DNA of 37,284 nt from an uncultured Holophagaceae bacterium (GTDB lineage: Bacteria; Acidobacteriota; Holophagae; Holophagales; Holophagaceae): positions 1-37,284 of the forward strand of contig CAIPUA010000239.1 in the NCBI GenBank assembly GCA_903868115.1, written 5' to 3'. Under the pieces are notes generated by a model. That model made no database searches. It was not told where the DNA came from and saw nothing but the letters and a program-made list of their open reading frames with translations. Positions 14,814 to 34,154 of the stretch are shown here, one piece after another. Made by a program: the position numbers and the translations under genes. Each line of letters opens with the position of its first letter. Position 1 is the stretch's first letter.

Positions 14814-14830
14814 TTGGCCCCTTCCTTGCT
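14814..14830 (+). promoter_or_regulatory. Sigma-54 (-24/-12) promoter of the decarboxylase genes
   Basis: TTGGCCCCTTCCTTGCT has the invariant GG (14816-14817) and GC (14828-14829) exactly ten bases apart and a full TTGC at -12. Transcription should begin near 14841, about 60 bp before the ATG at 14902. An IHF-like site lies just upstream, and a sigma-54 activator gene lies at the end of the same cluster. Confidence 0.75.
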
Positions 14831-14901: not shown

Positions 14902-17615
14902 ATGCCCAAAAAACTTAAAGAGGTGTTGGCAGACGCTGGCATCTCCATGGACTACGAGTCCGGCGGGAAGTCTCCAGAAGGCTTGACAGACCGTGAGGTG
15001 CAGCCCAATTGCCACCCCAGGGTCCAGAAGCTGAAGGACATCTTCATGCAGACCCTGTCCTCGGCAAACAGCGAGTTCCCCTACTGGTACACACGGGAAT
15101 GGGTGCTGCGGGACGGTGAGGTTCCGGTCGTTCGCCGCGCCATGGCCCTGAAGTCCGCCTTTGCCCACGCCACGCCGGTCATCTTCCCTGGCGAGCTGCT
15201 GACCATGCACAAGGCCGCCTTCTTCCGTGGTTCGTTTCCCATGCCCTGGCTCTCCGAGGGCTACTACATGGTCCAGGAGGATGCACTCTATCAGGACGCC
15301 CTCAAGCGTGGCTCCGCCTCGGCGGACGAGCACTCCAAGTTTGGGACGGGCGGTGGCAACGTCGTACGCAGCTTTGGCAAGGTCGTCTCCATCGCCGGCA
15401 AGTTCGGCATGCGCCAGGAAGAAATTCCCGTCCTGCTCAAGCTGGCCAAGGCTTGGGTCGGCAAGTCGGTGGACGATCTGGGGCATAAGTACGAGCAGAT
15501 GGTCCCTGGCTACGACATCAAAGAAGCGCTCATGCGGAATGTCATTTGCATGTTCGATTCCGGCTACACCCTGCCCCAGGGCCGGGAAGTGATCAACTAT
15601 TACTACCCACTGGAATACGGCATCGACGGCATCATCAAGATCGCCACCGAGAAGAAGGCCGAGGTTGCAGGTCGCGCCGATGGCGATGGCATGGTGGGCA
15701 CCAACCGTCTCTATAACTACGAAGCCGTCATCCTGATGATGGAGGGCCTCAAGGCCTGGTTCGAAAACTATGCCAAGGAGGCCACCCGTCTAGCCTCCAT
15801 CGAGCAGAACGCGACCCAGAAGCGGGAGTACACGGATATGGCTGAGCGCCTCCAGTGGCTCTCCCACGGCAAGCCCCGCAACTTCCGCGATGCCTTCCAG
15901 ATGATCGAGAGCATCCATCTGGGCGTGCTCAACGAAGACGCCATCTCTGGCATGTCCCCCGGACGCATTGGCCAGGTGCTCTTCCCCTACTTTGAGCAGG
16001 ATATTGCCGCGGGTCGCCTCTCCGAGGACGAGGCCATCGAACTCCTCGAACTGGATCGCGTGGTCAAGACCTCCATCGATTGCTTCGCCTCCATTGGCGT
16101 GGTCGGCGGTGTGCTCTCTGGCAACACTTTCAACACCGTGAGCGCTGGCGGCCTGAACAAGGATGGTGGCCACGCCTGCAATCGCCTCGAGTACCTGCTG
16201 ATGGAAGCGGGCATGCGCAATCCCATGCCGCAGCCCACCATCGCCCTGCTCTACGACGAAAAGCTCCCCGAGGACTACCTCCTGCTGGCCATGGAGTGCA
16301 TCAAGACCGGGGTGGGCTACCCGGCCTTCATGAACAACCAGGTCGGCATGACGTTCATGAAAGAGCACTACGGACCTGAAGGCATGAACGCCGAGGAAGC
16401 CCGTGCTTGGGCCATCGGTGGTTGCCTGGAGTCGAGCGCCTGCTGCTGGAAGCCCCTGCACCTCAACGGGAAAGAGTATTTCATTCCCGGCGGTTGCGGC
16501 CAACCCACCTCCGTGGGTGTCCACTTCCTCTCCATGCCCAAGATTCTCGAGACCGTGCTTTGGAACGGCGTGGATCAGCGCACCAATGAGCGGGTCTTCC
16601 CGGCCCATGATCGGGAACTGGATTCCTACGAGGTGATCTGGGACCAGTTCAAGCTCTACTGGCAGAAGTCCGTGGATGTTCTGGCGCTCACTAATAACCT
16701 CCAGCACGATATCTGGCGCAAGAACAACATGGCCGTGCTCAATTCCTTGTTGAAGCCGGACTGTCTCGATACCGGGCACCTGATCAACGAGCTGGGCTAC
16801 CGCTACAACGCCACCTTCAATGTGGAATCCGCAGGCACCACCACCTGCATCAATTCGCTGGCCGCCATCAAGAGGCTGGTCTTCGAGGACAAGGTCGTCA
16901 CTCTCGACGAACTGAAGACCGCCATGAGGACAACTTCGGCTTCAAGACCGCCAAGGAAGTGAACTCCTTCTCGCTGGCCGATCAGGAAAAGCGCGAGGAC
17001 GGTCCCGGCAAGTGGGACAAGCTCCACTTCGCCTGCCTGCAAGCCCCCAAGTATGGCAACGACGAGATCGCCGCCGACCAGATCCTCCTGGACTGGGAGA
17101 ACTGGTTCACTCGTGACTGCTACACCTACGAGTCCCTCTACGGGCATCCTATGTATGCCTGCCAGATTTCTGTGTCGAGCCACGGCGCCCTGGGTTCCGT
17201 CACCCTTGCCACCTCGGATGGTCGCCTCGCTGGCACCACCTTCGCCGACTCTTCCATGTCTGCCTACCCGGGCACGGATCGCAACGGCGTCTACGCGCTG
17301 CTAACGTCGGCCGCGATCTGGGACCACTCCCTGAGCCAGAATTCCCAGTTGAATGTAAAGATCCATCCCAGCGCGATCATGGGCGCCGAGGGTTCCCGCA
17401 AACTGCTGGATCTCATCCGGGGCTACATGCGTCAGGGTGGCTTCCACATTCAGTTCAATGTCGTGGACAGCAAGGTCCTCAAGAATGCCCAGGCCCAGCC
17501 CGAGAACTATCGCGACCTGATGGTGCGCGTCGCCGGATTCACCCAGTACTGGGTCGAGATCGGCAAGCCCGTTCAGGATGAACTCATCGCCCGCACTGAA
17601 TACGAAGGGATCTGA
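14902..17615 (+). CDS. hpdB: 4-Hydroxyphenylacetate decarboxylase, glycyl radical subunit (frameshifted)
   Basis: Two frames together encode one glycyl radical enzyme. The first runs from ATG 14902 to a stop near 16962 and holds the catalytic [10 protein letters not shown] motif, with the thiyl cysteine at residue 508 and a glutamate two residues on, the C-x-E pattern of aryl-acetate decarboxylases. The second frame resumes around 16926 with [19 protein letters not shown] and carries the glycyl radical site [10 protein letters not shown] (about residue 879 of the joined protein). One missing base in GCCATG-AGGAC (about 16926-16928) accounts for the break. Restoring it gives about 904 residues, close to the 902 of the clostridial enzyme. 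The enzyme turns 4-hydroxyphenylacetate into p-cresol and CO2 in the anaerobic cytoplasm. The small-subunit gene follows three bases later. As read, the radical glycine is lost, so the gene is either mutated or misread. Confidence 0.88.
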
Positions 17616-17617
17616 TC

Positions 17618-17890
17618 ATGACGACCAAATTCAATCACCGCGACTGCCGCAACTTCGCTCCCGTGGATGTGGCCAAGGGCATCTGCCATCTCAGCAAGGA
17701 ATTCGTCCAGGCGGACGGGGAACAGTGCGACAAGTTCACCCTTATGCCCAAGTGCAAGCACTGCAAGAGTTTTAAGGCAGATGCGACGACCATCGAAATG
17801 GGCACTTGTGAATCTTCCATGCATGAGCCCAAGTTCTTCGCCTATCCGGACATGGTTTCCGTGACCTGTGAGATGTTCGTCAAGAACTAA
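17618..17890 (+). CDS. hpdC: 4-Hydroxyphenylacetate decarboxylase, small Fe-S subunit
   Basis: 90 residues from ATG 17618, preceded by GAAGGGAT. It has the eight ligands known for this subunit in the right order: His7, Cys10, Cys23, Cys37 for the first 4Fe-4S cluster and Cys46, Cys49, Cys64, Cys84 for the second (motifs HRDC, KGICHLSK, MPKCKHCKSF). In the characterised clostridial enzyme this subunit completes the hetero-octamer and is needed for stable, regulated activity. Indoleacetate decarboxylases lack it, so its presence favours 4-hydroxyphenylacetate (or its 3,4-dihydroxy form) as substrate. It is intact, in contrast to the large subunit. Confidence 0.93.
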   Translation: MTTKFNHRDCRNFAPVDVAKGICHLSKEFVQADGEQCDKFTLMPKCKHCKSFKADATTIEMGTCESSMHEPKFFAYPDMVSVTCEMFVKN

Positions 17891-18021: not shown

Positions 18022-19440
18022 ATGGAAGATCGAAAAGCAAAGTTATACGGATGGTCAGTGGTGTTTGCGTCCTGGCTGGCAGTGTTCTGCCTCTTCGGCT
18101 ACCGCGCCACCTTTGCCATCCTCAAGGGACCCATGGGCATCAGCCTCGGCTGGACCACGGCCCAGGTGACCCTTGGATATTCCCTGATGATGGTGTGCTA
18201 CGCCGTGACAGCCTATTTCAGCGGCATGATCCTCGACAAGTGGGGAACCAAGCCCGTATATAGCATTGCTGCCATCTTCGGCGCCATGGGCTTCTTGTTG
18301 ACGGCTACGATCAGCACTCAATTGGCCTATCTCTTCACCTTCGGATTGCTGGGCGGCGTGGCCACGGGCATGCTCTGGGTCACCTCCACCGTCTCCGTCC
18401 GCAAGTGGTATGTGGGACGCACCTACGGAACGATGTGGGGCATTGCCTTCGCGGGCGCCCCCATGGCCCAGTTCGTTCTGGCTCAGGTGGTCAAGCCCAC
18501 CCTAAGCGCCACCCAGGGCAGGTTGGACATGGCCCTCCAGGCCCTCATTCCAAATGCCGCGTCCCTGCCTGGCAAGGAAATGGCCGTGGCCATGGCCGCC
18601 AAGCTCAAGGAGCCCGCCACCCGGCTGGTTCCGGCCGTCAAGGAAGCCATCGAAGCCTTGGACCAGGCCTGGCGCACCCAGATGACCATCCTGGGCGTCA
18701 TCGTCTTCATCGCCCTCGTGGTTGCGGTCCTGGTCGCGAAGAAATCTCCCGAAAGTTATGGCCTCAAACCTTTCGGTGCTCTTCCCGCTACCAGCGGCGC
18801 GGCCCCGGTGGAATACGATTGGACTGTCCGCGAAGCTTTCTCCAAGTGGGCCATCTGGGCCGCCATCCTCACCTTCCTCACCAGCATGATGGCGGAGTTC
18901 CTGATCTGGACCCAGGTGGTGAGCTATTGGACCTCCGATATCGGGTTCACTCTCAAGAAGGCCACCAATACCTACGCCATCATTGGCCTCATTGGCATCT
19001 TCTCCATGCCCATCATGGGTAAGGTAGCCGACAAGGTTGTCCAGGCCATCGGCAACGAAGTCATGGGACGCAAGATCATGCTCATCATTGGTCCCCTGAC
19101 AGGCGTCATTGCCTGCCTGTTCCTGCTGGCCACGGGCAAGAGCGACATGTTCGCGTATGTCGCCTGCTTTGTCTTCGCGGTCTATTGGGCCATCGTGCCC
19201 GGCGGCGTGGTCGGCTACACCGGCGCCATCTATGGTCGCAAGACCCTCGGAAAAATCTGGGGTCTGGCCACCATGATCGTAATGGGCATTGGCCCCTTCC
19301 TCGGCTCCTTCATCGGCGGCTGGATGAAGGATGTTTCCGGAAAGTTCACCTACTCCATTTACTTCGCCCTTTTCTCGTTCATCGTTTCAATCCTGCTGGC
19401 AACTTCCCTGCCCCTCAGGGCGGACCCCAAGCAGCGCTAA
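18022..19440 (+). CDS. MFS transporter of the OFA (oxalate/formate antiporter) type
   Basis: 472 residues from ATG 18022, which has a near-perfect AAGGAGGATGAT ribosome site; a longer frame starting upstream lacks one. Twelve membrane helices are visible, split by a soluble central segment (about residues 165-220) rich in Ala and Lys. The helix 2-3 loop reads SGMILDKWGTKPVYSI, the G-x-x-x-D-K/R-x-G signature of the superfamily, and WVTSTVSVRKWYVGRTYGTM fits the OFA group, which exchanges small carboxylic acids. Between the decarboxylase and its activase, the likely cargo is 4-hydroxyphenylacetate or a related aromatic acid; that is inferred from position. Confidence 0.88.
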   Translation: MEDRKAKLYGWSVVFASWLAVFCLFGYRATFAILKGPMGISLGWTTAQVTLGYSLMMVCYAVTAYFSGMILDKWGTKPVYSIAAIFGAMGFLLTATISTQLAYLFTFGLLGGVATGMLWVTSTVSVRKWYVGRTYGTMWGIAFAGAPMAQFVLAQVVKPTLSATQGRLDMALQALIPNAASLPGKEMAVAMAAKLKEPATRLVPAVKEAIEALDQAWRTQMTILGVIVFIALVVAVLVAKKSPESYGLKPFGALPATSGAAPVEYDWTVREAFSKWAIWAAILTFLTSMMAEFLIWTQVVSYWTSDIGFTLKKATNTYAIIGLIGIFSMPIMGKVADKVVQAIGNEVMGRKIMLIIGPLTGVIACLFLLATGKSDMFAYVACFVFAVYWAIVPGGVVGYTGAIYGRKTLGKIWGLATMIVMGIGPFLGSFIGGWMKDVSGKFTYSIYFALFSFIVSILLATSLPLRADPKQR

Positions 19441-19644: not shown

Positions 19645-20622
19645 ATGCCCACGACTCCGGGAGTTATTGTGAATGCTGCACCCCTTCCAACCAAGGACCC
19701 TACGGGGCTGATCTTCGATATCCAGGCTCATTCGGTCCACGATGGGCCCGGCACGCGGACGACGGTTTTCTTGAACGGGTGCCCCCTTGCCTGCACTTGG
19801 TGTTGCAACCCAGAGGGGATGTACAAAAAACCTGTAATGATGCACCGCGAGGCACGCTGCGTCCGCTGCGGCAACTGCGTCAAAGCCTGCCCCTCTGGCG
19901 CGGCCACCCTGGACCCCCAGGGAAAGATCCACTTCGATCGCACCCGGTGCGATGTCTGTGTAGACCCCCACTGCATCACCGACTGCTATCACGAGGCACT
20001 AGTCATCAGCGGCAAGCGCTACACCGTGGATGAACTGGAACGCATCTTCCAGCGGGATCGACACTATTGGGGACGTGGGGGAGGGGTCAGCTTCTCGGGC
20101 GGAGAGCCCCTGCTGCAGAAGGAATTCATGCTGACCCTACTGCAGCGTTGCAGGGATCTCCGGATCCATACCTGTGCAGAGACGACAGCTTGCCTTGAGG
20201 GCGATTACTTCATGAAGGCGGCGGCCCTGCTAAGTTGGATCTTCGTCGATCTGAAGCACATGAATAGCGAGGCGCACCGCAAGATGACGGGGGTCGGCAA
20301 CGAACTGATCCACGAGAACCTGAAGCGCCTCGCTCAATCCGATCTGGATTGCTTCGTCGTGGTGAGAATTCCCATCATTCCAGGCTTCAACGATTCGGAG
20401 AAAAACCTGCGGGCCACGGCCCGCTTCGTTCGCGAGATCGGCCTCGAAGTCATCAATATCCTGCCCTTCCATCGTCTCGGGGAATCCAAGTGGCGCCAAG
20501 TTGGAAAGGATTACACGTTTGCGGAAACGAAAAGCCTCGGACGGGAAGAACTGGAATCGCATGTCCGATGGATAAAAGAGGAAGGCCTCACCTGCTACGC
20601 AGGCTGGGAAACGCCTTTCTGA
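19645..20622 (+). CDS. hpdA: 4-Hydroxyphenylacetate decarboxylase activating enzyme (radical SAM)
   Basis: Up to 325 residues. The radical SAM motif CPLACTWC has cysteines 46, 50 and 53 of the long form. A ferredoxin-like insert (CVRCGNCVKACPSGAA and CDVCVDPHCITDCYHEA) follows, as in other glycyl-radical activases, then FSGGEPLLQKEF and the family tail ILPFHRLGESKWRQVGKDYT, which is very close to the clostridial activase. It uses reduced flavodoxin or ferredoxin and SAM to put the radical on the decarboxylase glycine. ATG 19645 is given as start; a GTG at 19669 with GGGAG upstream would give 317 residues, nearer the clostridial length. The activase is separated from the decarboxylase genes by the transporter. 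Confidence 0.92.
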   Translation: MPTTPGVIVNAAPLPTKDPTGLIFDIQAHSVHDGPGTRTTVFLNGCPLACTWCCNPEGMYKKPVMMHREARCVRCGNCVKACPSGAATLDPQGKIHFDRTRCDVCVDPHCITDCYHEALVISGKRYTVDELERIFQRDRHYWGRGGGVSFSGGEPLLQKEFMLTLLQRCRDLRIHTCAETTACLEGDYFMKAAALLSWIFVDLKHMNSEAHRKMTGVGNELIHENLKRLAQSDLDCFVVVRIPIIPGFNDSEKNLRATARFVREIGLEVINILPFHRLGESKWRQVGKDYTFAETKSLGREELESHVRWIKEEGLTCYAGWETPF

Positions 20623-20669
20623 GCGTCTGCTCGGCTGAATCAACCACTCTATGTGCCCCTGGAGGCCCT

Positions 20670-22043
20670 ATGCAAAGTCTGATCAAACTATCGCGGCTAG
20701 CGACCGCGCTCACCCTGACCTCCTGGGTCTTGGCCCAGGAACCTCCCAAGGGCCAGGCCCCGAAGGGCATCTTCGAAGTTGGTTTCGAGGAGCGCGTGCG
20801 CCTCGAGGACTACGACAACATCATCGATCACAACGACGCCAACGCGTCGGACCTGAAGAGCTATTACCGCTTCCGGACCCGAGCGTGGATCACGGCGAAT
20901 CCGACGTCCGATCTAGAGATTTCCATCGGCGTGAACAATGAAAATCGAAAAATCGTCCATCCAAATGCGGCCATTAACGCCCGCGAAGTCTTCTTCGATA
21001 CCTTCTATGTTGATTATAAATTTTCGAAAGCCTGGTCTGTGAGAGTTGGCAGACAGAACATCATGCGCGGGGAAGGCTTCGTCATCTTCGACGGCGGCGC
21101 CCTGGATGGTTCCCGGGCCGCCTACTTCAATGCCCTCGATCTCACCTATGCCTGGAGCAAATCCAAGCTTGAGTTCCTGGCCATCTCCAATCCTTCGAAG
21201 GACAAGTATCTTCCGAGAATCAACGAGGCGACCGGGTTGGGGGAGAGTCCCCAGCGCCTGAACGAGCGCGACGAGCAGGCCCTTGGTCTTTATTTCACAG
21301 GGAAGGAATGGACCGGGACAAGCCTGGAGGCTTACTACTTCCTAAAGACCGAGACGAACGACTACCGGGCCATTAGCAATGCCCAGTTCCAGGCCGATCG
21401 TCGAATCAGCACCCTCGGCAGTCGCGCTGTGCAGGACTTCCAGGATGGCTGGAGCGTGAACGGCGAATTCGCCTATCAGTGGGGAACCCAGGATGGGCGC
21501 CCGGGCACAACGGAGGCGCGCCGGGATATCGGGTCTTGGGGTGGCTACCTGCGCGTGAAGAAGGCCCTGGATTTGTCCTGGAAGCCCACCTTCTCCGCAG
21601 CCTACATCGCCATGTCGGGGCAGGACCCGAATTCCTCCGTCACCTCAAAGATCACCACCTGGGATCCCATCTTCAGTCGCTGGCCTCGGTGGAGCGAACT
21701 CTACATCTACTCCGAGGTTCCGGAAAAGGGCGTGGCCTATTCCACCAACACGGGCATGTGGGAAGCGGAAGTGCGCCTCACCCCGTCGAAGCCCCTGGAA
21801 CTGAGGGCCACCTTCTACAAGATGGCCGCCATGGAGGCTCCCGGCACCGTGCCTGGAGCGACCTTCAGCACGGGCAAGAACCGCGGCGATATCTTGCAAT
21901 TCCGGGCCGATTACAAGTTCAGCCCCGAATTCAAGGGGCATGTTCTGTACGAGCACCTCACCCCTGGCGATTTCTACACGGGCAAGAATGCGGGACACTT
22001 CCTCCGCCTTGAGCTTTCCTACCTGTTCAAGACCCGCTTCTGA
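20670..22043 (+). CDS. Outer-membrane porin of the alginate-export type
   Basis: 457 residues from ATG 20670 with GGAGG upstream. A signal peptide (LATALTLTSWVLAQ) leads to alternating amphipathic strands ending in an aromatic C-terminus (LSYLFKTRF), the signal for outer-membrane insertion. KSYYRFRTRAWITANPTSDLE and VRVGRQNIMRGEGFVIFDGG are typical of the alginate_exp-like barrel family. In this setting it is probably the entry pore for the aromatic acid or another substrate of the cluster; the substrate cannot be read from the sequence. Confidence 0.8.
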   Translation: MQSLIKLSRLATALTLTSWVLAQEPPKGQAPKGIFEVGFEERVRLEDYDNIIDHNDANASDLKSYYRFRTRAWITANPTSDLEISIGVNNENRKIVHPNAAINAREVFFDTFYVDYKFSKAWSVRVGRQNIMRGEGFVIFDGGALDGSRAAYFNALDLTYAWSKSKLEFLAISNPSKDKYLPRINEATGLGESPQRLNERDEQALGLYFTGKEWTGTSLEAYYFLKTETNDYRAISNAQFQADRRISTLGSRAVQDFQDGWSVNGEFAYQWGTQDGRPGTTEARRDIGSWGGYLRVKKALDLSWKPTFSAAYIAMSGQDPNSSVTSKITTWDPIFSRWPRWSELYIYSEVPEKGVAYSTNTGMWEAEVRLTPSKPLELRATFYKMAAMEAPGTVPGATFSTGKNRGDILQFRADYKFSPEFKGHVLYEHLTPGDFYTGKNAGHFLRLELSYLFKTRF

Positions 22044-22223: not shown

Positions 22224-23303
22224 ATGACCCTGACCATCCGCCCCCCGCAGTTCCAGGTCTCCACGCAAAACCCCTGCGGACTTGAAGGCATCGACTTCGT
22301 GGAATTCGTCTCGCCGGAGCCCGCAAAGCTCGACGCACTCTTTAGGGGCTTCGGGTTCTCAAAGACGATGACGCACGCCACGAAATCCATCGATCTCTAC
22401 CAGCAGGCCGATATCACTTTTCTTGTAAATCGCGAGCCCAATTCCTTTGCCGCGTCATTCGGGAGCCTGCACGGACCTTCCATCTGCTCGATGGGTTGGC
22501 GCACGAGGGATGCGAAGGTGGCCCTTACCACCGCGATGGAAAATGGTGGAAAGGTATGCGCACAGGGCGATTTCGCGGTGAATGGCAGGATGATGCCGGC
22601 CATCTTTGGGATTGGCGGAAGCCTCATCTATTTTACGGATTGCTGGACCGAGGCGAACACGTGGGAACGCCTGGGCTTCCGAAAGCTCACAACGCCGGAA
22701 TTCACACCGAACAAGGGCTTCACGGCCATCGACCACCTTACGAACAATGTCGAAAAGGGAACGATGCAGCAGTGGGCCACCTTCTATAAATCGGTTTTTG
22801 GCTTCGAGGAGGTGCGCTACTTCAATATCCGCGGTTCGAAGACGGGGCTGACCTCGTATGCCCTCCGTTCGCCATGCGGCTACTTCTGCATCCCCATCAA
22901 TGAAGCCGACGACAAAAAATCGCAGATCAACGAGTACCTCGAGGAATACAAAGGCCCCGGCATCCAGCACCTCGCGTTTCTCACCGAAGACATCCTCGGC
23001 TCGCTCGAGAAACTTGAGGGCACGCCCATCGAGATGCTTGATATGGACGATGATTACTACCTCGATGCCTTCACAAAGGTCTCAAAGATCATGGAAGACA
23101 GGGGCGACCTCCAGAGGCGCAACGTGCTTGTTGATGGCAACGAGAATGGCTATCTGCTACAGATCTTCACGAAAAACCTGATCGGTCCAATCTTCATCGA
23201 GATCATCCAGCGGAATAACCATTTCTCCTTCGGTGAGGGAAATTTCGCCGCGTTGTTCCGCTCCATCGAGCGGGACCAACAGAAGCGGGGCTACCTTGAC
23301 TGA
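22224..23303 (+). CDS. hppD: 4-Hydroxyphenylpyruvate dioxygenase
   Basis: 359 residues from ATG 22224 (GAGGAG upstream), the usual bacterial length. All three iron ligands are present: His171 (AIDHLTNN), His249 (GIQHLAFL) and Glu326 (FIEIIQR). The closing helix, SFGEGNFAALFRSIERDQQ, is the canonical C-terminus, and LLQIFTKNLIGPIFIEIIQR is almost the sequence of the Pseudomonas enzyme. It converts 4-hydroxyphenylpyruvate and O2 to homogentisate and CO2 in the cytoplasm. No homogentisate dioxygenase or other later gene of the aerobic pathway is in the window. An oxygen-using enzyme in a cluster with a glycyl radical enzyme is unusual. The rubredoxin-like gene follows after 38 bp. Confidence 0.95.
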   Translation: MTLTIRPPQFQVSTQNPCGLEGIDFVEFVSPEPAKLDALFRGFGFSKTMTHATKSIDLYQQADITFLVNREPNSFAASFGSLHGPSICSMGWRTRDAKVALTTAMENGGKVCAQGDFAVNGRMMPAIFGIGGSLIYFTDCWTEANTWERLGFRKLTTPEFTPNKGFTAIDHLTNNVEKGTMQQWATFYKSVFGFEEVRYFNIRGSKTGLTSYALRSPCGYFCIPINEADDKKSQINEYLEEYKGPGIQHLAFLTEDILGSLEKLEGTPIEMLDMDDDYYLDAFTKVSKIMEDRGDLQRRNVLVDGNENGYLLQIFTKNLIGPIFIEIIQRNNHFSFGEGNFAALFRSIERDQQKRGYLD

Positions 23304-23341
23304 TTCCTGCCTGGCCTGATGCCATCTAAACGAGGTGAACC

Positions 23342-23545
23342 ATGCCTAAGTGGCTCTGTGATACATGCAACTTCATGGTTGAGACACAGGGAACGACGCC
23401 TCCGCCCTCAGAGGGGCTGAAGCCAACGCCCTGGGATCTCCCCGCAGACTGGACCTGTCAGATCTGCGGTAGCCCACGCGAAGCATTATCGCCAGTCGAT
23501 CCGGCCGATTACCAGAAAGGTGGCGCCTGCAATCGCTGGCAGTGA
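23342..23545 (+). CDS. Rubredoxin-like protein
   Basis: 67 residues from ATG 23342 with GAGGTG upstream. Two knuckles, CDTCNF and CQICGS, are about the rubredoxin distance apart, with the usual LPADWTC before the second pair, so it should bind one iron with four cysteines. It differs from ordinary rubredoxins in the loop (PPPSEGLKPTPW, no YDP motif) and has an added tail, DPADYQKGGACNRWQ, with a fifth cysteine. It probably carries single electrons for one of its neighbours. The next gene starts 4 bp after its stop, or overlaps it if an upstream GTG is used. Confidence 0.82.
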   Translation: MPKWLCDTCNFMVETQGTTPPPSEGLKPTPWDLPADWTCQICGSPREALSPVDPADYQKGGACNRWQ

Positions 23546-23549
23546 GACC

Positions 23550-24788
23550 GTGAAACCCTCGCAATCCGTAGGTATCCCAACACAGTCCGAACGGCGGCCC
23601 AGGCGTGTTCTGAAACTCGTTCTGGGCCTCGATTGCGCGAATGCCTGCTCCTACTGCGCCCTCAAGGGTGCGCATGGCTTCGGGGAGGCACGCGGGGCAC
23701 GCCTCGACCCGCAGATCGCCGAGCCACGAATCCGTCAGGTGATGGACAAATACGAGATCACCGGCCTCGAGGTGGGCGCGGGAGAGATCTTCGATTTCCC
23801 CGATCTCTGGAAGTGGCTCCTGGATTTTAACGCCCGCGAGTTGAAGGTCCCCGTGATGGCCTTCACCTCGGGCCTCTCGCGACACACGCCACGAGTCCTC
23901 GACGCGCTCGCGGCTTCCGGTGTGCCCGTTCTCCTCCTCGTCTCCTACGACGGCCGCCGCTCCGAACGGAACGCCTTGAACTGGCGCGAGGCCGAAGCGG
24001 CCTTCCGCCGTATGCGCACCCGCCTCCCCCAGGCCTCCAATATCACGCTCAAGCTCTCCGCCTGCGTGACACCGAAGGACACACAACACCTGAAGGAGAA
24101 CTTCCTCTCGCTCCTCGAACTCCAGAACGCCCCCTTTGCCTTCCGCCCCATCAAGCGCGCCTTCAGCAAGAACCAGCGGGAGGCCTTCGTGAGCCAGCTC
24201 GCCACTTTTATCGAGGAGGCGGCCGGGGGCGGCGTGCGACTGGTGGAGGCCCCGGTCGGTGACAGCTGGGCCCTTCAGTTGAAGCGCGACTGGACCTGCC
24301 ACAAGCTGGGCATCAGCCTGCTGCCGGACGGACGCTTCACCGATTGCTATGTCGCCTGGTACTGTTCCAATTTCAACCCAGAACGGACGCTTCCGTTCCT
24401 CGACGGCCTCGACCGCTTCTTCACGGATGCCGAAGCACCAGTCGCACCCTTGTGTGGGCAGTGCCTTGACATTTTCGACCTCTGTAACCTCTGCCCGGCG
24501 GGCCTCGCCGACTTCCAGCGAGCAACGGGTCAACCCTTCTATTCTCCGGAATTTTGCCGGATGGTGAACCGCGCCTCACTCCTCCTCCTCAACAAGGCGC
24601 TGGAGCCACATCCGCGGCTTGAGATGATCGTGAAACGAGGGCCTGTGGAGACTCGCATTCGGCGTGAGGCTGGGCGATTGGTGCTGACATTCCCCCACGG
24701 GACTCCCCCGGTCACTATCGACCCGCGTGACCCCTCCGTTACCTGGATGGAAGGCGCGCGGGTCGATCCTTTCGGTGCGACACTATGA
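23550..24788 (+). CDS. Radical SAM/SPASM-domain protein of unknown target
   Basis: 412 residues from GTG 23550 (a GTG at 23520 would overlap the rubredoxin gene). The SAM-binding cluster motif CANACSYC gives Cys29, Cys33, Cys36. The C-terminal third has C-x10-G-x4-C (DWTCHKLGISLLPDG, then FTDC), then CGQCLDIFDLCNLC and a last FC. This is the SPASM pattern with slightly altered spacing (CX2CX6CX2C instead of CX2CX5CX3C). SPASM enzymes usually hold two more Fe-S clusters and modify peptides or proteins (sulfatase maturases, PqqE, MftC). No obvious precursor peptide is nearby. The tight link to a rubredoxin-like gene and a dioxygenase gene suggests the three act together. Confidence 0.85.
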   Translation: MKPSQSVGIPTQSERRPRRVLKLVLGLDCANACSYCALKGAHGFGEARGARLDPQIAEPRIRQVMDKYEITGLEVGAGEIFDFPDLWKWLLDFNARELKVPVMAFTSGLSRHTPRVLDALAASGVPVLLLVSYDGRRSERNALNWREAEAAFRRMRTRLPQASNITLKLSACVTPKDTQHLKENFLSLLELQNAPFAFRPIKRAFSKNQREAFVSQLATFIEEAAGGGVRLVEAPVGDSWALQLKRDWTCHKLGISLLPDGRFTDCYVAWYCSNFNPERTLPFLDGLDRFFTDAEAPVAPLCGQCLDIFDLCNLCPAGLADFQRATGQPFYSPEFCRMVNRASLLLLNKALEPHPRLEMIVKRGPVETRIRREAGRLVLTFPHGTPPVTIDPRDPSVTWMEGARVDPFGATL

Positions 24789-24877: not shown

Positions 24878-26869
24878 ATGAAATCCGCCAAGCCCGTCTC
24901 CTCCCCTCTCCCCGTCAACGAGGAGGGGGTTTGCCTCGACTGGACCCTGACAAAGGTGATGGATCATCTAATCGCCAATGGCAGCCAGGCTGCCCCTCTC
25001 CTAGACCCTTCGGGATGCGCTCCCCGGAGCTTTCATCTGCCTTTTTTCCTGAGGGAGATCGCCCAGGGGAAAAAATGGTCAGGGCAGGACCCCATCGCTT
25101 GGCATCTGCTTCCGGAGGGACAATCATTCCCCGTGGTAGAGGTGGACCCTGGCCCGGAACTAGTTGGACTGGGGTTGGTTCGTCAGGCCGGGGATCACAA
25201 AGGTCTGATCCTGTTCGCGCTCCTCGATGGCGAGGGCGCCATCCCTTATGCCAGCCCGGCATTTCGTGAATTATTTTCTGACTCCTTTCGCAAACCCCAG
25301 CCCAACCTCGAGGATCTTTTTCCGGTGCTGCGGACGAGTCGCGCTGAAGAAGTTCCCGGGATGTGGGGCAGGATTCTGATCTCGGAGCGCCGCAGTTTTT
25401 TCGGACTCTTCATTCCGCTGCAGGACCTCCCCGCCCGTGGGTTCACGGCCCTTTTCCTGCATGAAATCAGTCCACTTCTGGAGGAACATCATCGCCAGGC
25501 TCTTGATGAAATCGACCTGCTGAGACGCGTCCTGGATGTCTCTGCGGATGGGTTGATGGTGGTGGACACTGGTGGCCTCATCACCCTCGTGAACCGGAGC
25601 TTCGAGGAGATCCACAGCGTCACTCGCTCACAGGTGCTGGGTCGCCATGTCTCCGATGTTGTCGAGAACACGCGGATGCATATCGTCGCCCGCACCGGAG
25701 TGGCGGAGGTGGATGATTTCCAGGAGATCGGTGCGCGCGATTTCGTCGTGACCCGCTTCCCGATTTTTCGGGACGGAAAGTGCATCGGCGCCGTGGGCAA
25801 GATCATCTTCTCGGACTTCAAGGAGATCAAGCGGCTGGGCATGAAGGTGGCCCGTCTCCGGGGACAGCTTGACACCCAGCGCGGGACCAAGAATCAGCCC
25901 CGCTCTGATACCAAATTTACTTTCGCCGACATCGTGGCTCGTTCCGAAGCCAGCCTGCAGGCCAAGGAGAGGGCCATGCGCGTGGCGCCGACGCCTGCCA
26001 CGGTCCTGTTGTTGGGAGAGAGCGGCGTGGGCAAGGAGGTCTATGCCCACGCCATCCACAACCTCAGCCTGCGCTGTCAACATCCCTTCATCCGGGTGAA
26101 CTGCTCGGCCATCCTGGAATCCCTCTTCGAATCCGAACTCTTCGGCTACGCCGACGGGGCCTTCACCGGAGCCCGGAAGGGGGGAAGGCCGGGTAAGTTC
26201 GAGCAGGCTGACGGTGGCACGATCTTCTTGGATGAGGTTGGGGACATGCCTCTGGCCGTCCAAGCCAAGATGCTTCGGGTGCTGCAGGAGCGGGAGATTG
26301 ACAAGGTGGGTGGGGAGGGCAGCCTGCCTGTGGATGTACGCATCATTGCCGCCACCAACCAAAACCTTTTGAAGTTGGTGGAGGAGGGCAAGTTTCGCAA
26401 GGACCTCTACTATCGGTTGAATGTGATCCCCATCGTCATTCCCTCGCTTCATGAGAGACCGGAGGATGTGATGGTGCTGATCCGGATGTTCTGGACTGAA
26501 ATGCAGAGATCCCATGGCATCTACCACAAATCTCTCAGCAACGCGGCCATGGACCTGTTGGAGAAACAACCCTGGCCGGGCAACATTCGCGAACTTCGCA
26601 ATGTGCTGGAACGGACCCTCACCATCGTCCTGGAGGACACCATCAGCGCGGAGCAAGTGCGGGCCATCCTGGTGGGTTTGGGCCCGGCCACGGAGACATA
26701 CTGCGAGGAGACTAGCTGTCGGCTGGACCAGGTTGTGGCGAAGGCCGAACGGCAAGCCATAGGCTTTGCACTGGCCCGCGCCAACAACAATCGGCTTCAG
26801 GCCGCCAAACTGCTGGGCGTCTCCAGGCCTCTGCTTTATCGGAAAATGCATGAATATGGCCTGATCTAG
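24878..26869 (+). CDS. Sigma-54-dependent enhancer-binding regulator with PAS domain
   Basis: 663 residues from ATG 24878 (a TTG at 24845 is possible). Residues 1-215 are an unrecognised input region. A PAS domain follows ([19 protein letters not shown] to about residue 320). The AAA+ domain has Walker A GESGVGKE at 380-387, the sigma-54 contact loop GAFTGA at 427-432 and Walker [14 protein letters not shown]. The C-terminal Fis-type helix-turn-helix is [20 protein letters not shown]. It should bind upstream sites and open sigma-54 promoters in response to a ligand or redox signal. The -24/-12 promoter at 14814 in the same cluster is the likely target. There is no response-regulator receiver domain, so control is by direct sensing. 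Confidence 0.93.
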
Positions 26870-27868: not shown

Positions 27869-28212
27869 AACCGAAGAACAAAATGCCTGCCGTGGTGAAT
27901 CTGTTCGAGTCTTTGGGCCGCTCGTCTTTCAGGGCTGTTGAACGCAAATGGGTATAACTCCCGGTGGCAGAGGGGAGGTAGTGAAGGTCAAAATTTGAGC
28001 AGTCAAAAATTTTTTTCTTGCATCAAAAAATTTACTTGATTTCGTTATAATTTTGTTTTATAGTGTATTTGGTAAATTTTAAAAAATAATTTCATTGTTT
28101 TATTTTTATTTTACGCTCTGCCGGATCGGTGAGAACCAAATTCATCGATTGAATCCAACCCCGGTTGGCTCACGCTATCCAGACCTGCAACCCCTTTGAA
28201 GGAAGCCTGGCC
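27869..28212. other. AT-rich control region ahead of the purine operon
   Basis: 344 bp without a gene. From about 27990 to 28115 it is strongly AT-rich, unlike the rest of the window. It contains the promoter at 28036-28064 and an untranslated leader of about 140 bases with nested inverted repeats: GTGAG/CTCAC (28130-28173), ATTCA/TGAAT and CCAACC/GGTTGG (28155-28168). Confidence 0.7.
28036..28064 (+). promoter_or_regulatory. Sigma-70 promoter of the purine operon
   Basis: TTGATT (28036-28041) and TATAGT (28059-28064) are 17 bp apart, four and five matches to consensus, in the most AT-rich stretch of the window. A start near 28071 would leave a leader of about 140 bases before the ATG at 28213. 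A second -10-like box, TATAAT (28046-28051), lacks a -35 at normal distance. Confidence 0.55.
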
Positions 28213-30819
28213 ATGGAATTCACCCTCAATGGAACCCGCACGAGCTATGACGCCAGCCTTGAGCTGAGTGTCCTCACCTACCTGCGGGAGGTTGCCAGGA
28301 TCATCAGTCCCAAGGACGGCTGTTCCGGTGAAGGTGTCTGCGGGTGCTGCACCATCCTGGTGGGCGGGGGGGCCCGTCTGAGTTGCCGCATGAAGATGAA
28401 GGACATCGAAGGGAAATCCCTCACCACGCTGGAGGGCTTGTCGACGCTCGAGCGGAATGCCTTCGCCGACGCCTTCGTGCTCAAGGGCGGCGTCCAGTGC
28501 GGCTTCTGCACGCCGGGCATCGTGATGAAGGCCAAGGCGATGCTGGCCAAGAACCCAAGGCCGACCCGCCAGGAGATCACGCACGGACTTACAGCCAACC
28601 TGTGTCGCTGCACCGGCTACAAGAAGGTGGTGGATTCCATCGAATGTGCCGCCGAAGCGATCCGCGAAGGCAGGCCCGTGACGATGACCACGGGCACGGG
28701 CCAGATCGGCAGCCGCCACGGGAAGTACACGGGACGCGAAGCGGTACTCGGTGAGCGGGTCTTCGTGGGCGATATGCAGGAGCCCGGCATGCTCTTCGGC
28801 GCCCTCAAGTTCTCGGATCATCCCAGGGCCAAGGTGCTTCGCATCGATGTCTCCGAGGCCCTTCGGGTGCCGGGCGTGGCGCGGATTCTGGTGGCCGAGG
28901 ACATCCCCGGCACACGGATCGTGGGAATGATCTACAAGGATTGGCCGGTGCTGATCGCCGAGGGCGAGGAGACTCGCTACATCGGCGATGTGCTGGCCGA
29001 AGTGGCTGCCAGCAGCGAAGCCGCGGCAAGAGAGGCCGTGGCCCGCATCCGCGTGGACTACGAGGTACTGCCGCCCGTCACGGATATCTTCGAGGCGCTG
29101 CAGCCAGGAACCCCGCAACTGACTCCCAAGGGGAATGTTCTCTCCGTTTCCGAAGTGAAGGTGGGCGACGCGGCCGCCGCCCTGGATACCTCGGCCTTCG
29201 TCGTGCGCGGACGCTACGCGACCCAGCGCATCGAGCACGCGTTCCTGGAAATGGAAGCCACCTTTGCCATCCCCTGGCAGAAGGACGGTGAAAAGGGCAT
29301 CAAGGTCTTCGACTGTGGTCAAGGCGTCTACGAGGACCGGGTCCAGTTGGCGGCCATGCTGGGCGTTGCCGAAAAGCGCGTGAACGTGGTCCAGGTGCAG
29401 AACGGCGGCGGCTTCGGTGGCAAGGAGGACCTCACGACTCAGGGCCATGCCACGCTGCTCTGTTGGCACACGGACCGCCCCGTGATGGTGCGCCTCACTC
29501 GCCAGGAATCTTTGCGGATGCACCCCAAACGCCATCCCATCGTGATGGATTACGCGCTGGGCTGCGACCCGAACGGCAGGCTCACAGCCCTCGTCGCCAC
29601 CATGCATTCCGATTCGGGTGCCTACGCCAGCGTGGGCATGAAGGTCATCGAGCGCGCCGTGGCCCACGCCGCCGCAGCCTATACAGTGCCCAATGTCCAT
29701 GTGAAGGGCACGGCGGTCATCACCAACAATGTGCCCTGCGGCGCCATGCGGGGCTTCGGTGTGAACCAGTCCTGCTTCGCCATGGAATCCTGCATGGACG
29801 AACTCTGCCGCATGGGCGGCTTCGACCGCTGGCAGTTCCGCTGGGACAACGCGCTGGTGGAGGGCAAGAGCATCGCCACGGGGCAGATCCTGAAGGGCGG
29901 TGTGGGGGTACGCGCCTGCCTGGAGGCCCTGAAGGATCGTTTCCAGCAGGCCAAATGCGCGGGCCTCGCCGCGGGCATCAAGAACACCGGCATCGGTTGC
30001 GGCATGCCGGACTACGGCAAGGCCAAGATCGTCATCGAGGCCCCGGATCGCGTGGTCGTCCATCACGGCTGGTGCGAGATGGGACAAGGCGTCTACACCA
30101 TGGCGCTGCAGACCCTGGTGGAGGAGACGGGCATCGAGCCCGATTACATCGAGATCCGGGTGGATACGGACGAGGAGACCGCCGCTGGGATGACCACGGC
30201 CTCGCGTGGTACCTCCCTGGTGGGCAATGCCGTGCGCGTCACGGCCCAGGGCCTGAAGCAGGATCTGCTTGCGGGCAAGACGCTGGCCGATCTGGTAGGG
30301 CGGGAATACAAGGGCGAATGGGTCTGCGACTGGACCACCAAGGTCGGCCACGAACCCCCGCCGGGCAAGGATGTCGTTACGCACTATTCCTACGGCTACG
30401 CCGCCCAGATGGTGGAACTCGACGAGACCGGCAAGATCACGCGCATCACCGCCGCCCACGACGCGGGCCGCATCATGAATCCCACCCTCTTCGAAGGCCA
30501 GATCGAGGGCGCCCTGCACATGGGCCTGGGCTACGCACTGACCGAGGAGTTCCCCTTCAAGGACGGCTTCCCGGTGTCCTGGCAACTGGCGGACCTTGGC
30601 ATTCTCCGGGCTCGTGATATGCCGCTCGTGGAGGTCATCGGCGTGGAAGTGGCGGACCCCCACGGTCCGTACGGCGCGAAGGGCGTGGGCGAGATCGGCC
30701 TAGTGCCAACAGCTGCCGCCGTGGCCAATGCCCTCTGTCAGTTCGATGGCATCCGCCGCACGACCCTGCCCATGCGGGAAATGAAGGCCCTGGGCAGGCA
30801 GCCCAAGGAAGCGCTGTGA
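28213..30819 (+). CDS. XdhD-type molybdenum hydroxylase (selenium-dependent xanthine dehydrogenase family)
   Basis: 868 residues from ATG 28213 with GAAGGAAG upstream. The N-terminus holds two 2Fe-2S domains: GCSGEGVCGCCTILVGG, then QCGFCTPGIVM and LCRCTGYKKV. A molybdopterin-binding part follows directly, from GKYTGREAVLGERVFVGD, with NGGGFGGKEDLT, PCGAMRGFGVNQ and the final GAKGVGEIGLVPTAAA near the catalytic glutamate. The FAD domain of ordinary xanthine dehydrogenase is absent, as in E. coli XdhD. The enzyme hydroxylates purines such as hypoxanthine or xanthine in the cytoplasm. Family members carry a labile selenium at the cofactor rather than selenocysteine, and no in-frame TGA is seen here. 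The stop overlaps the start of the YgfK-type gene, which may accept its electrons. Confidence 0.93.
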   Translation: MEFTLNGTRTSYDASLELSVLTYLREVARIISPKDGCSGEGVCGCCTILVGGGARLSCRMKMKDIEGKSLTTLEGLSTLERNAFADAFVLKGGVQCGFCTPGIVMKAKAMLAKNPRPTRQEITHGLTANLCRCTGYKKVVDSIECAAEAIREGRPVTMTTGTGQIGSRHGKYTGREAVLGERVFVGDMQEPGMLFGALKFSDHPRAKVLRIDVSEALRVPGVARILVAEDIPGTRIVGMIYKDWPVLIAEGEETRYIGDVLAEVAASSEAAAREAVARIRVDYEVLPPVTDIFEALQPGTPQLTPKGNVLSVSEVKVGDAAAALDTSAFVVRGRYATQRIEHAFLEMEATFAIPWQKDGEKGIKVFDCGQGVYEDRVQLAAMLGVAEKRVNVVQVQNGGGFGGKEDLTTQGHATLLCWHTDRPVMVRLTRQESLRMHPKRHPIVMDYALGCDPNGRLTALVATMHSDSGAYASVGMKVIERAVAHAAAAYTVPNVHVKGTAVITNNVPCGAMRGFGVNQSCFAMESCMDELCRMGGFDRWQFRWDNALVEGKSIATGQILKGGVGVRACLEALKDRFQQAKCAGLAAGIKNTGIGCGMPDYGKAKIVIEAPDRVVVHHGWCEMGQGVYTMALQTLVEETGIEPDYIEIRVDTDEETAAGMTTASRGTSLVGNAVRVTAQGLKQDLLAGKTLADLVGREYKGEWVCDWTTKVGHEPPPGKDVVTHYSYGYAAQMVELDETGKITRITAAHDAGRIMNPTLFEGQIEGALHMGLGYALTEEFPFKDGFPVSWQLADLGILRARDMPLVEVIGVEVADPHGPYGAKGVGEIGLVPTAAAVANALCQFDGIRRTTLPMREMKALGRQPKEAL

Positions 30820-33800
30820 TGGAAAAAGCCTTCCGCCCCGCACCGCTTGAGCTTCTGGCCCGCTGGATTTTCGATGAACTGGATCATCGCGATACGGTCC
30901 TCGGCATCCCCCAGGGCAACTTCCAGATACCCGGCGCCCAGCTCTCGTCCCAGTTGTTTGGCCGCACCCTGGCCGTGCCGCTGGGCATGGCCGCCGGGCC
31001 GCATACCCAGCTTTCGCAGAACATCATCGCCGGTTGGCTTTGCGGGGCGCGATTCATCGAGTTGAAGACCGTTCAAATACTGGATGAGATCGCCGTCAGT
31101 CGGCCCTGCATCGATTCCGCGGACGAGACCTACAACTGCGAGTGGTCCCAGGAACTCACACTCGAGCAGTCCTTCGACGAATACCTGAATGCCTGGGTGC
31201 TGGTGCATGCCCTGGCCCATAGACTGGGCCTGAATCATCCCGGAACTCTCTTCGCCATGAGTGTCGGCTACAACCTGGAGGGCATCCAGAACCCGCGGGT
31301 GCAGCGATTCATCGCCTCCATGCGCGATGCCCGCCATGCCCTACCCAAGGCCGTCGACGCCGTGGCGAAAACCTACCCTGCGGTGCGGGATATCGAGATT
31401 CCTCATCAGCTCTCCGACCACATCACGCTCTCCACCATGCACGGCTGCCCACCAGCGGAAATCGAGCGCATCGCACGCTACTTGCTCACAGACTTGGGCG
31501 TGAACACCTGGGTGAAGCTCAATCCCACCCTACTCGGACCAGAACGGCTGCGCGGCATCCTCAACCATACGCTGGGCTTCGAGATCGAAGTGCCTGACGC
31601 GGCCTTCGAGCACGATCCGAAATTCGAGGCTGCCATGGCCATGGTGCGGAACCTCGCCCAGGTCGCCGAAGGCCTGCCCCAGCAGTTCGGCCTCAAGCTC
31701 TCCAACACATTAGAGGTCATCAACAAGCGCCCGATCTTTCCCGGCACGGAAAAGATGATGTACATGTCGGGCCGCTCGCTGCACCCGTTGACGGTGACAC
31801 TGGCGAAACTCGTCACTGAGGAGTTGGATGGCCAGGTGCCGATCAGTTTCTGTGGCGGCGCCGAGGCCACGAATTTCGCGGATCTCGTGGCGGCAGGCCT
31901 CTCCCCGATCACCGTGTGCACGGATCTCCTGAAGCCCGGTGGCTACGCGCGCCTTCAGCAGTACCTGGTGAATCTCGAAGGTGCCATGACGCAGGTCGGT
32001 GCCGATACGCTCGACGCCTTCGTGCAGCTCCGCTCCGGCGGCCAGGGCGCCCACTTCAGCCTAGCCCGCCATGCCGAATGCGTCCTCGGCGACGAGCGGT
32101 ATTCGCACCGCGACCGTCCCCTCCATTTCAAGGGCGCTCGCGCCCTGGGTACCTTCGACTGCATCGCGGCGCCCTGCCAGGAAGCTTGTCCGGCCCACCA
32201 GAACATTCCGGACTATCTCTGGCTGGTGGCCCACGGCAGGCCTGCCGAGGCCATGGAGGTCATCCTCCACACCAATCCATTGCCCGGCGTGACGGGCAGC
32301 ATCTGCGATCATCCCTGCACCGAACGCTGCGTCCGCAACTTCTACGATGCACCCCTTGGGATCCGGGAGATCAAGCGTTTCGCGTTTGAAAATTGCGGGC
32401 GCAGCCCGCAATTTTCAGAGCAAGCGAAAGAAACGAACGGCGTCAAGGTGGCCATCGTGGGGGCGGGACCGGCGGGGATGTCGGCGGCCTACTTTCTGGC
32501 GAAGATGGGTTTTGAGGCAGAGATTTTTGAAGGCAAGACGCATCTCGGCGGCATGGTGGGCGGGGCGGTGCCGCGTTATCGCCTGGATGATGATGCGCTC
32601 GCAGTGGATCTCGAACGCCTGCGCCAACTCGGCGTGAAGATCCATCTGGGGCAGGTGCTGGGTGGGAATCTCGCCCTTTCGACTCTGCGCCAGGACTTCA
32701 ACTATCTCTTCCTGGGTGTCGGCGCCCAGCGGGGAAAGCGGCTCGGCATCGAGGGGGAAACTGCACTTGGCGTCATCGATGCGCTGGAATTCCTGGACAA
32801 GGTCCGGGCTCAGAAACCGATGGAATTGGGAAGGCGCATCCTCGTCATCGGCGGCGGCAATTCCGCCATGGACGCGGCCCGCTCCGCCCGGCGGTTGGCC
32901 CCGGAGGCCCAAGTTTCCCTGGTCTATCGGCGCACCCGCTCAGAGATGCCTGCGGATCCCGAGGAGGTCCAGGACTGCCTCCTGGAAGGCATCGAACTGA
33001 AGGACCTCCTCGCGCCGGCCCGAGTCGTGGTCGAAGGCGGCAGGGTGGTGGGCCTTGCCTGCACCCGCATGCGACTGGGGGAGCCCGATGCCTCTGGCCG
33101 CCCGCGGCCTGTGCCTGCGGACGGGCCCGAGGAAGTCCTGCCCGCCGGTACGATTGTTTCCGCCATCGGACAGGAAGCCGTGCTGGATTTTCTGGGCGAC
33201 CTCGAATTGAAGCGGCACCGAGACGGCACGCTGGCCGTGGCGCCTGCCACCTGCGAGACGAGCCAGCCAGGCATCTTTGCCGGTGGCGATGTGGCGCGAG
33301 GCCCGGCCTCGGTCATCAAGGCCATCGCCGATGGACGGTCTGCGGCCGAAGAGATCGGCCGCAGACATGGCGTGATTTTGGAGACCGAACCCTCGCTTGC
33401 CAAGACAAGTTCCATCGCGGAAATGCTGGCGAAGAAGGGCCCCAGAGCACTGCCCCAGACGGTTCCCGTGCTGCCCATCTCCGAACGCGGCGGCTTTCAG
33501 GAAGTTCTCCAGGGCTTCAGCCATGGAGACGCCTTGGCGGAAGCCAGCCGCTGCCTCGATTGCGACGAGCTGTGCAGTCTGTGCGTGACGGTCTGCCCCA
33601 ACCGGGCCAACCGCGCTTTTGCCATGGCGCCCCTTGCCCTCGAATGGCCCGTGCTGGTCGCTCGCGGAGGCCAACTGGTCGAGGAAGGCCCGAAGGTCTT
33701 CAGCGTTCAGCAGTCTGTCCAGATCCTGAATATTGGCGATTACTGCAACGAATGCGGCAACTGCGTCACCTTCTGCCCCACCTCCGGCGCACCCTTCCGG

Positions 33801-34154
33801 GACAAACCTCGGTTTTGGCTGGATGCCGAAGGCTTCGAGAATGCTCAGGGTGATGCCTTCCGCCTGGAACTCACGGAGGAGGGCGTGACCCTGGAGGCAC
33901 GGCTGGGCGGCAGCCTGCACCGTCTGGAGCGCCGGGCCGAGGGCACGGAATACCACTCTGACGTGCTGCGGGCCCGCTTCGCCACAGACACCTGGCGGCT
34001 GCTCGACTGGGAACCGGTAGGGCCGCTGGATGATGGGCAGAGGTTCGATCTGGCGCCCTGCGTCACGCTCATCGCCCTGCTCGGAGCGGAACAGGCGATC
34101 CCGACCCATTTCCTGCGCGCCATGTCGTCGGCCACCCGCACGGAGCCAACATGA
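30819..34154 (+). CDS. ygfK: YgfK-type flavin/Fe-S oxidoreductase (putative selenate reductase family)
   Basis: 1111 residues from ATG 30819, overlapping the stop of the hydroxylase gene by one base. In order: a dihydroorotate-dehydrogenase-like barrel (PLGMAAGPHTQLSQNIIAGW, residues 1-430); a helical Fe-S domain (APCQEACPAHQNIPDYL and CDHPCTERCVRNF); FAD and NAD(P) binding folds (VAIVGAGPAGMSAAYF, ILVIGGGNSAMDAARSARRL); and ferredoxin motifs (CDELCSLCVTVCPNRAN and CNECGNCVTFCPTSG). The parts are those of dihydropyrimidine dehydrogenase in another order. YgfK genes occur in purine-degradation clusters and are thought to reduce a purine-ring intermediate; the older name comes from a selenate-reduction phenotype. 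A perfect 29-bp inverted repeat lies in the linker before the FAD domain. Confidence 0.92.
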   Translation: MEKAFRPAPLELLARWIFDELDHRDTVLGIPQGNFQIPGAQLSSQLFGRTLAVPLGMAAGPHTQLSQNIIAGWLCGARFIELKTVQILDEIAVSRPCIDSADETYNCEWSQELTLEQSFDEYLNAWVLVHALAHRLGLNHPGTLFAMSVGYNLEGIQNPRVQRFIASMRDARHALPKAVDAVAKTYPAVRDIEIPHQLSDHITLSTMHGCPPAEIERIARYLLTDLGVNTWVKLNPTLLGPERLRGILNHTLGFEIEVPDAAFEHDPKFEAAMAMVRNLAQVAEGLPQQFGLKLSNTLEVINKRPIFPGTEKMMYMSGRSLHPLTVTLAKLVTEELDGQVPISFCGGAEATNFADLVAAGLSPITVCTDLLKPGGYARLQQYLVNLEGAMTQVGADTLDAFVQLRSGGQGAHFSLARHAECVLGDERYSHRDRPLHFKGARALGTFDCIAAPCQEACPAHQNIPDYLWLVAHGRPAEAMEVILHTNPLPGVTGSICDHPCTERCVRNFYDAPLGIREIKRFAFENCGRSPQFSEQAKETNGVKVAIVGAGPAGMSAAYFLAKMGFEAEIFEGKTHLGGMVGGAVPRYRLDDDALAVDLERLRQLGVKIHLGQVLGGNLALSTLRQDFNYLFLGVGAQRGKRLGIEGETALGVIDALEFLDKVRAQKPMELGRRILVIGGGNSAMDAARSARRLAPEAQVSLVYRRTRSEMPADPEEVQDCLLEGIELKDLLAPARVVVEGGRVVGLACTRMRLGEPDASGRPRPVPADGPEEVLPAGTIVSAIGQEAVLDFLGDLELKRHRDGTLAVAPATCETSQPGIFAGGDVARGPASVIKAIADGRSAAEEIGRRHGVILETEPSLAKTSSIAEMLAKKGPRALPQTVPVLPISERGGFQEVLQGFSHGDALAEASRCLDCDELCSLCVTVCPNRANRAFAMAPLALEWPVLVARGGQLVEEGPKVFSVQQSVQILNIGDYCNECGNCVTFCPTSGAPFRDKPRFWLDAEGFENAQGDAFRLELTEEGVTLEARLGGSLHRLERRAEGTEYHSDVLRARFATDTWRLLDWEPVGPLDDGQRFDLAPCVTLIALLGAEQAIPTHFLRAMSSATRTEPT
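32388..32416. repeat. Perfect 13-bp inverted repeat inside the ygfK-type gene
   Basis: GAAAATTGCGGGC and GCCCGCAATTTTC surround a 3-base loop. It falls in the linker between the Fe-S and FAD domains (protein FENCGRSPQFSEQ), where extra residues would do no harm, and has a different base composition from the gene around it. Confidence 0.85.

Follow-up and report, generated by a model that had tools for sequence, protein, structure and literature searches.

Radical SAM maturation of a small protein from the same operon is known from quinohemoprotein amine dehydrogenase, whose small subunit QhpC is modified once per molecule, in a single turnover, by the operon-encoded QhpD (PMC7876137). Thioether formation by PapB gives back an electron that is moved by intermolecular transfer (PMC10470005), and in tetraether lipid synthase a rubredoxin site works with a radical SAM enzyme bearing auxiliary clusters. 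The 4-hydroxyphenylacetate decarboxylase (HPAD) operons (hpdBCA) described in Clostridium scatologenes and Olsenella encode a large subunit, a small subunit and an activase, and the MFS carrier of HPAD-type clusters is assigned to arylacetate uptake (PMC6181972).

The locus considered here lies in a window of 37,284 nucleotides, the whole stretch of DNA analysed, from an uncultured Holophagaceae bacterium. Its gene order is hpdB, hpdC, MFS carrier, hpdA, porin, 4-hydroxyphenylpyruvate dioxygenase (HPPD), a rubredoxin-like protein (Rd), a SPASM-type radical SAM enzyme and a sigma-54 regulator. As with QhpC and QhpD, a small protein and a radical SAM enzyme share one operon, and near-stoichiometric amounts would be expected; the candidate substrate here is, however, a rubredoxin, no leader-protease or flavoprotein gene is present, and modification of the partner is putative. 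PapA/PapB and other SPASM peptide cross-linkers would share with the locus SPASM-like auxiliary clusters, a Cys-bearing possible substrate and a need for an electron shuttle, but the enzyme here has no peptide-recognition domain and its candidate substrate is a folded metalloprotein. In tetraether lipid synthase the rubredoxin is part of a fused chain acting on a lipid, whereas Rd is a separate protein with a tail of its own.

The 4-hydroxyphenylacetate decarboxylase operon

Judged by their predicted products, the genes surrounding Rd and the SPASM enzyme are a complete sigma-54-type HPAD operon for the conversion of 4-hydroxyphenylacetate to p-cresol, with hpdB, hpdC and hpdA all present on the plus strand. 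The large-subunit gene hpdB is split between two frames, an N-terminal part (14902–16962; 1116 bits against NF033715) that carries the GGCLE active-site motif and a C-terminal part with the glycyl-radical domain (16959–17615). The frame breaks near the end of the former (16850–17010), where one base is missing relative to the intact sister genes in the operons L021 and L018, the cause being a genuine frameshift or an error of assembly. The small Fe-S subunit gene hpdC (17618–17890) scores 82.8 bits against NF033716, above the cut-off of 50, while the radical SAM activase gene hpdA (19645–20622) reaches 373 bits against NF033717, below the cut-off of 420, yet this is its best family. As a proper hpdC is in place, Rd as a missing HPAD small subunit was ruled out.

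Three further plus-strand genes recur in sister operons, namely an MFS carrier, probably for arylacetate uptake (18022–19440; kept in L021 and L018), an Alginate_exp-type outer-membrane porin (20667–22043; PF13372; kept in L021, L024 and L018) and a PrdR-like sigma-54 activator with a PAS domain (24878–26869; kept in L021 and L024), the frame of which is open from 24845 with its first ATG at 24878. The operon looks like an uptake and decarboxylation unit for 4-hydroxyphenylacetate. The large and small subunits and the activase are shared with the known HPAD operons, and the MFS carrier with that of Olsenella (PMC6181972); to these the window operon adds the porin, the sigma-54 regulator and the Rd-SPASM pair. 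The HpdDEFG/J/K set of the C. scatologenes operon (PMC13285125) has no counterpart in the window.

A candidate sigma-54 type −24/−12 promoter, TGGCCCCTTCCTTGCT (14815–14830, plus strand), matches at 10/12 positions and lies ~70 bp upstream of hpdB. Around three matches of such quality are expected by chance per whole window, and the evidence is thus the recurring position: candidates also precede hpdB in the sister operons L018 (10/12) and L021 (12/12), the latter a perfect match, TGGCACGCGGCTTGCA, at L021:7781–7796 in genome G008. The perfect match suggests sigma-54 control of these HPAD operons.

The HPAD context was absent from the first-pass annotation of this DNA. A glycyl-radical enzyme 50% identical to the window hpdB was also seen at L019:8159–10852, with a weak hpdC match and without the set of MFS carrier, porin and regulator, and may act on another arylacetate substrate. 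Elsewhere in the window, two runs were named by translation. Positions 28165–35539, downstream, have the look of a purine operon in its own right, a tight run coding for a xanthine-dehydrogenase-like protein, a fused oxidoreductase resembling YgfK and a permease of xanthine/uracil type. Positions 6146–11749 make up an RND-type efflux operon coding for a pump, a membrane fusion protein and an outer-membrane factor, in which the pump carries a repeated GAGAEGHGIA-type low-complexity insert.

The rubredoxin-like protein and the SPASM-type enzyme

HPPD (22224–23303), Rd (23342–23545) and the radical SAM gene (23550–24788) are all open on the plus strand and are separated by 38 and 4 bp, exactly as first annotated. 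Rd has 67 residues and five Cys, and the description of it as an unusual rubredoxin with an extra Cys-bearing tail holds. Residues 1–53 match rubredoxins by sequence, with two CxxC pairs, although the score against PF00301 (17 bits) is under the cut-off of 23. An AF2 model of fair quality (mean pLDDT 75, with low confidence for the last four residues) also has the rubredoxin fold, and its top PDB matches are rubredoxins. Rd departs from classical rubredoxins, with which it shares these CxxC pairs and fold, in having N or S in place of G after the first CxxC and in a C-terminal extension of ~14 residues. The extension ends in the ACNRWQ tail and contains a fifth Cys, Cys63, beyond the four metal ligands.

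The radical SAM protein (412 residues from a GTG start) carries a CxxxCxxC motif at residues 29–36 (C29-C33-C36). The general radical SAM family PF04055 was the only Pfam model matched, with an E-value of 9e-5 and a score short of the gathering threshold. The protein matched no NCBIfam model at all and no SPASM model of Pfam, and TIGR04085 had no match in genome G000 at an E-value of 1e-6. In profile-profile alignment with 27 SPASM proteins of the phylum (hhalign), the match nevertheless has 95% probability over 272 columns and runs into the SPASM region, with C250, C302 and C305 inside the aligned part; the HpdA control gave 2%. Compared with the seven-Cys SPASM motif (Cx9-15Gx4C...Cx2Cx5Cx3C...C), the protein has C250, G261x4C266, C302x2C305x6C312x2C315 and C336, so that all the Cys are there, with an inner spacing of 6/2 instead of 5/3. 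Eight Cys at SPASM-like spacing are common to this enzyme and its one relative, at the locus L004 described below. An AF2 model of the enzyme was poor (mean pLDDT 47.5), and the best PDB match of that poor model is PqqE; viperin-like enzymes come next, then BlsE, DesII and SuiB, and MoaA is also among the fold matches, in keeping with a TIM-type barrel.

Taken together, these data support a SPASM-type protein that fits no curated subfamily, has no named family and departs from the usual inner Cys spacing (Cx2Cx6Cx2C here). The assignment as a radical SAM enzyme agrees with the first-pass annotation; for its SPASM part we prefer 'SPASM-type' to outright membership, since the curated models are unmatched, yet the profile-profile probability is 95%.

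Distribution of the pair and the place of HPPD

A GTDB-wide pattern scan combined with searches of ~590 genomes returned a single other relative of the radical SAM protein, 70% identical (68% over the full alignment), at L004 in genome G421. No further copies were found in the window's class (93 genomes), in the class of G421 (149 genomes) or in 396 genomes across the phylum. The scan used 8-residue patterns, which miss distant relatives, and the direct searches lay outside the HPAD loci of Clostridia and Actinobacteria, so the rarity holds for close homologues only. The other genomes of the 396 in the phylum likewise yielded no tailed Rd; two weaker matches there are short rubredoxins of the ordinary kind, which have no tail. 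No further homologue came from plasmids, from viral contigs searched with both proteins or, for the radical SAM protein, from PDB sequences.

The L004 operon runs through hpdA, the porin, the sigma-54 regulator, the tailed Rd and the SPASM enzyme, and the hpdB of that genome is elsewhere, at a contig end. The Rd stop and SPASM start are arranged as TGA-N4-GTG, a 4-bp spacing, at both loci. Rd and the SPASM gene thus occur in exactly two of the genomes found and never singly. The pair is real and rare, and it is novel in its association; no description of a rubredoxin-SPASM, rubredoxin-radical SAM or HPAD-linked pair was found in the openly licensed PMC literature, which is weak evidence of absence.

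HPPD stands apart from this pair. It had been called canonical, and it is: its score of 340 bits exceeds the TIGR01263 cut-off of 277, and it aligns to the Pseudomonas enzyme 1cjx across residues 15–358, nearly its full length. HPPD is present in 22 of the 41 genomes searched, the window's own included, and copies from its genus are ~34% identical to the HPPD of the window. An hmgA-like gene lies near several HPPDs of relatives, including the closest relative found (G012, 59% identity). The window's genome (~94% complete) gave no hmgA match. No HPPD is present at L004. Membership of HPPD in a module was therefore ruled out: the second locus lacks it, its sequence is canonical, and it is common elsewhere without the SPASM gene. 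It is probably a separately placed neighbour with no relation to the pair.

By gene content and order, then, the conserved unit is the Rd-SPASM pair, a putative accessory to HPAD, and not the trio of HPPD, Rd and SPASM enzyme that the first-pass annotation had put forward as a possible module. The trio was found together only in this genome, while its Rd-SPASM link stands, with both genes at identical 4-bp spacing in two genomes. That the three genes jointly make a product derived from tyrosine, a suggestion of the first-pass annotation that the tight co-directional run in the window had made attractive, is now very improbable given the second locus without HPPD. HPPD requires O2 and radical SAM enzymes do not tolerate it, and the canonical character of HPPD and the hmgA-like gene beside its best relative also argue against such a pathway.

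The HPAD setting bears on two further explanations. HPAD was found in 6/396 phylum genomes, and both pair loci are HPAD operons, which speaks against the pair being cargo whose function has nothing to do with HPAD; we consider this quite unlikely, even though only two loci are known and the pair stands before the regulator in the window and after it in L004. The same association, together with the O2 sensitivity of glycyl-radical enzymes and their activases, would suit a role of Rd and the SPASM enzyme in repairing, protecting or activating the HPAD glycyl-radical enzyme or its activase, for instance under oxidative stress. In the phylum sample, five other genomes carry an HPAD without the pair. 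One of them is G008, in the family of the window's bacterium; its operon L021 is the closest sister to the window operon and keeps the gene order except that HPPD, Rd and SPASM enzyme are missing. HPAD therefore does not need the pair, and such a helper role seems unlikely.

A candidate role for the C-terminal tail

Between the window and L004, Rd is 69% identical over the full alignment, a figure that divides into 76% for residues 1–55, 0/6 for the linker (56–61) and 4/4 for ACNR, followed by an aromatic residue. The ACNR[W/Y] motif is present in 2/2 sequences, with Q or K as last residue; with so few sequences, the conservation of the tail is tentative and does not decide between the readings below. 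As the first-pass annotation had noted, no precursor peptide is visible: comparison of the two loci turned up no other short ORF that was recognisably conserved, and a hidden precursor was ruled out on this basis. Conservation of ACNR[W/Y] beyond a linker with none, the conserved coupling of the two genes and the lack of another recognised shared short ORF together favour the tail as a contact point, whether it is modified there or serves for docking.

The reading we rank first, tentatively, and one of the possibilities given in the first-pass annotation, is that the SPASM enzyme acts on its neighbour Rd in the way QhpD acts on QhpC, modifying the Cys-bearing tail, and that the two genes would form an accessory module of the HPAD operon. 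Rd and the SPASM enzyme would be translated together, the enzyme would recognise the folded rubredoxin domain, and SAM would be reductively cleaved at the CxxxCxxC cluster. The 5'-deoxyadenosyl radical, with the auxiliary clusters, could then cross-link or oxidise the C-terminal ACNR[W/Y] segment, most likely by joining the non-ligand Cys63 to a residue next to it. The outcome would be a modified redox protein serving HPAD metabolism, for example through electron supply or protection of radical enzymes. Against this, the CxxxCxxC motif begins at residue 29 and leaves no space ahead of it for a peptide-recognition domain; the two sequences differ at the aromatic position (W or Y) and at their final residue; the model of the enzyme is poor; sister HPAD operons manage without the pair; and a rubredoxin is also sensible as a plain electron carrier.

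That last point leads to the explanation we rank second, again foreshadowed in the first-pass annotation, and hold to be rather doubtful, in which Rd is a dedicated redox partner only, accepting or shuttling electrons of the SPASM clusters, with the tail as a docking element and a small aromatic or other compound as the enzyme's substrate. The rubredoxin fold of Rd is consistent with such a role, as are the rubredoxin domain of tetraether lipid synthase (PMC9433317), the rubredoxin-like Fe site in Mmp10 (PMC8828468) and the requirement of PapB turnover for intermolecular electron transfer that redox proteins are able to mediate (PMC10470005). The fold matches of the enzyme also include BlsE and DesII, which do not act on peptides. 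Rubredoxin potentials are generally too high for reduction of the SAM cluster, so only an acceptor or shuttle role fits, and small-molecule biosynthesis genes do not accompany the pair at both loci.

Returning to tail modification, the bolder form of this proposal, a new radical SAM maturation system in which the Cys-Asn-Arg-aromatic tail of Rd would be converted, next to a mononuclear iron site, into a cross-link or a redox cofactor derived from the protein, for use with a glycyl-radical decarboxylase, strikes us as unlikely, if worth stating. Should the tail be modified, a rubredoxin would be the substrate of a radical SAM maturase, a case not found in the openly licensed PMC literature, and would unite, within 67 residues, a metal site with a group derived from the protein. 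Should Rd be a partner only, it would be the natural electron carrier of a SPASM-type enzyme, marked as such genetically; to our knowledge, the physiological electron partners of such enzymes are mostly unknown. On either reading, the pair would be an undescribed accessory part for HPAD (p-cresol) operons.
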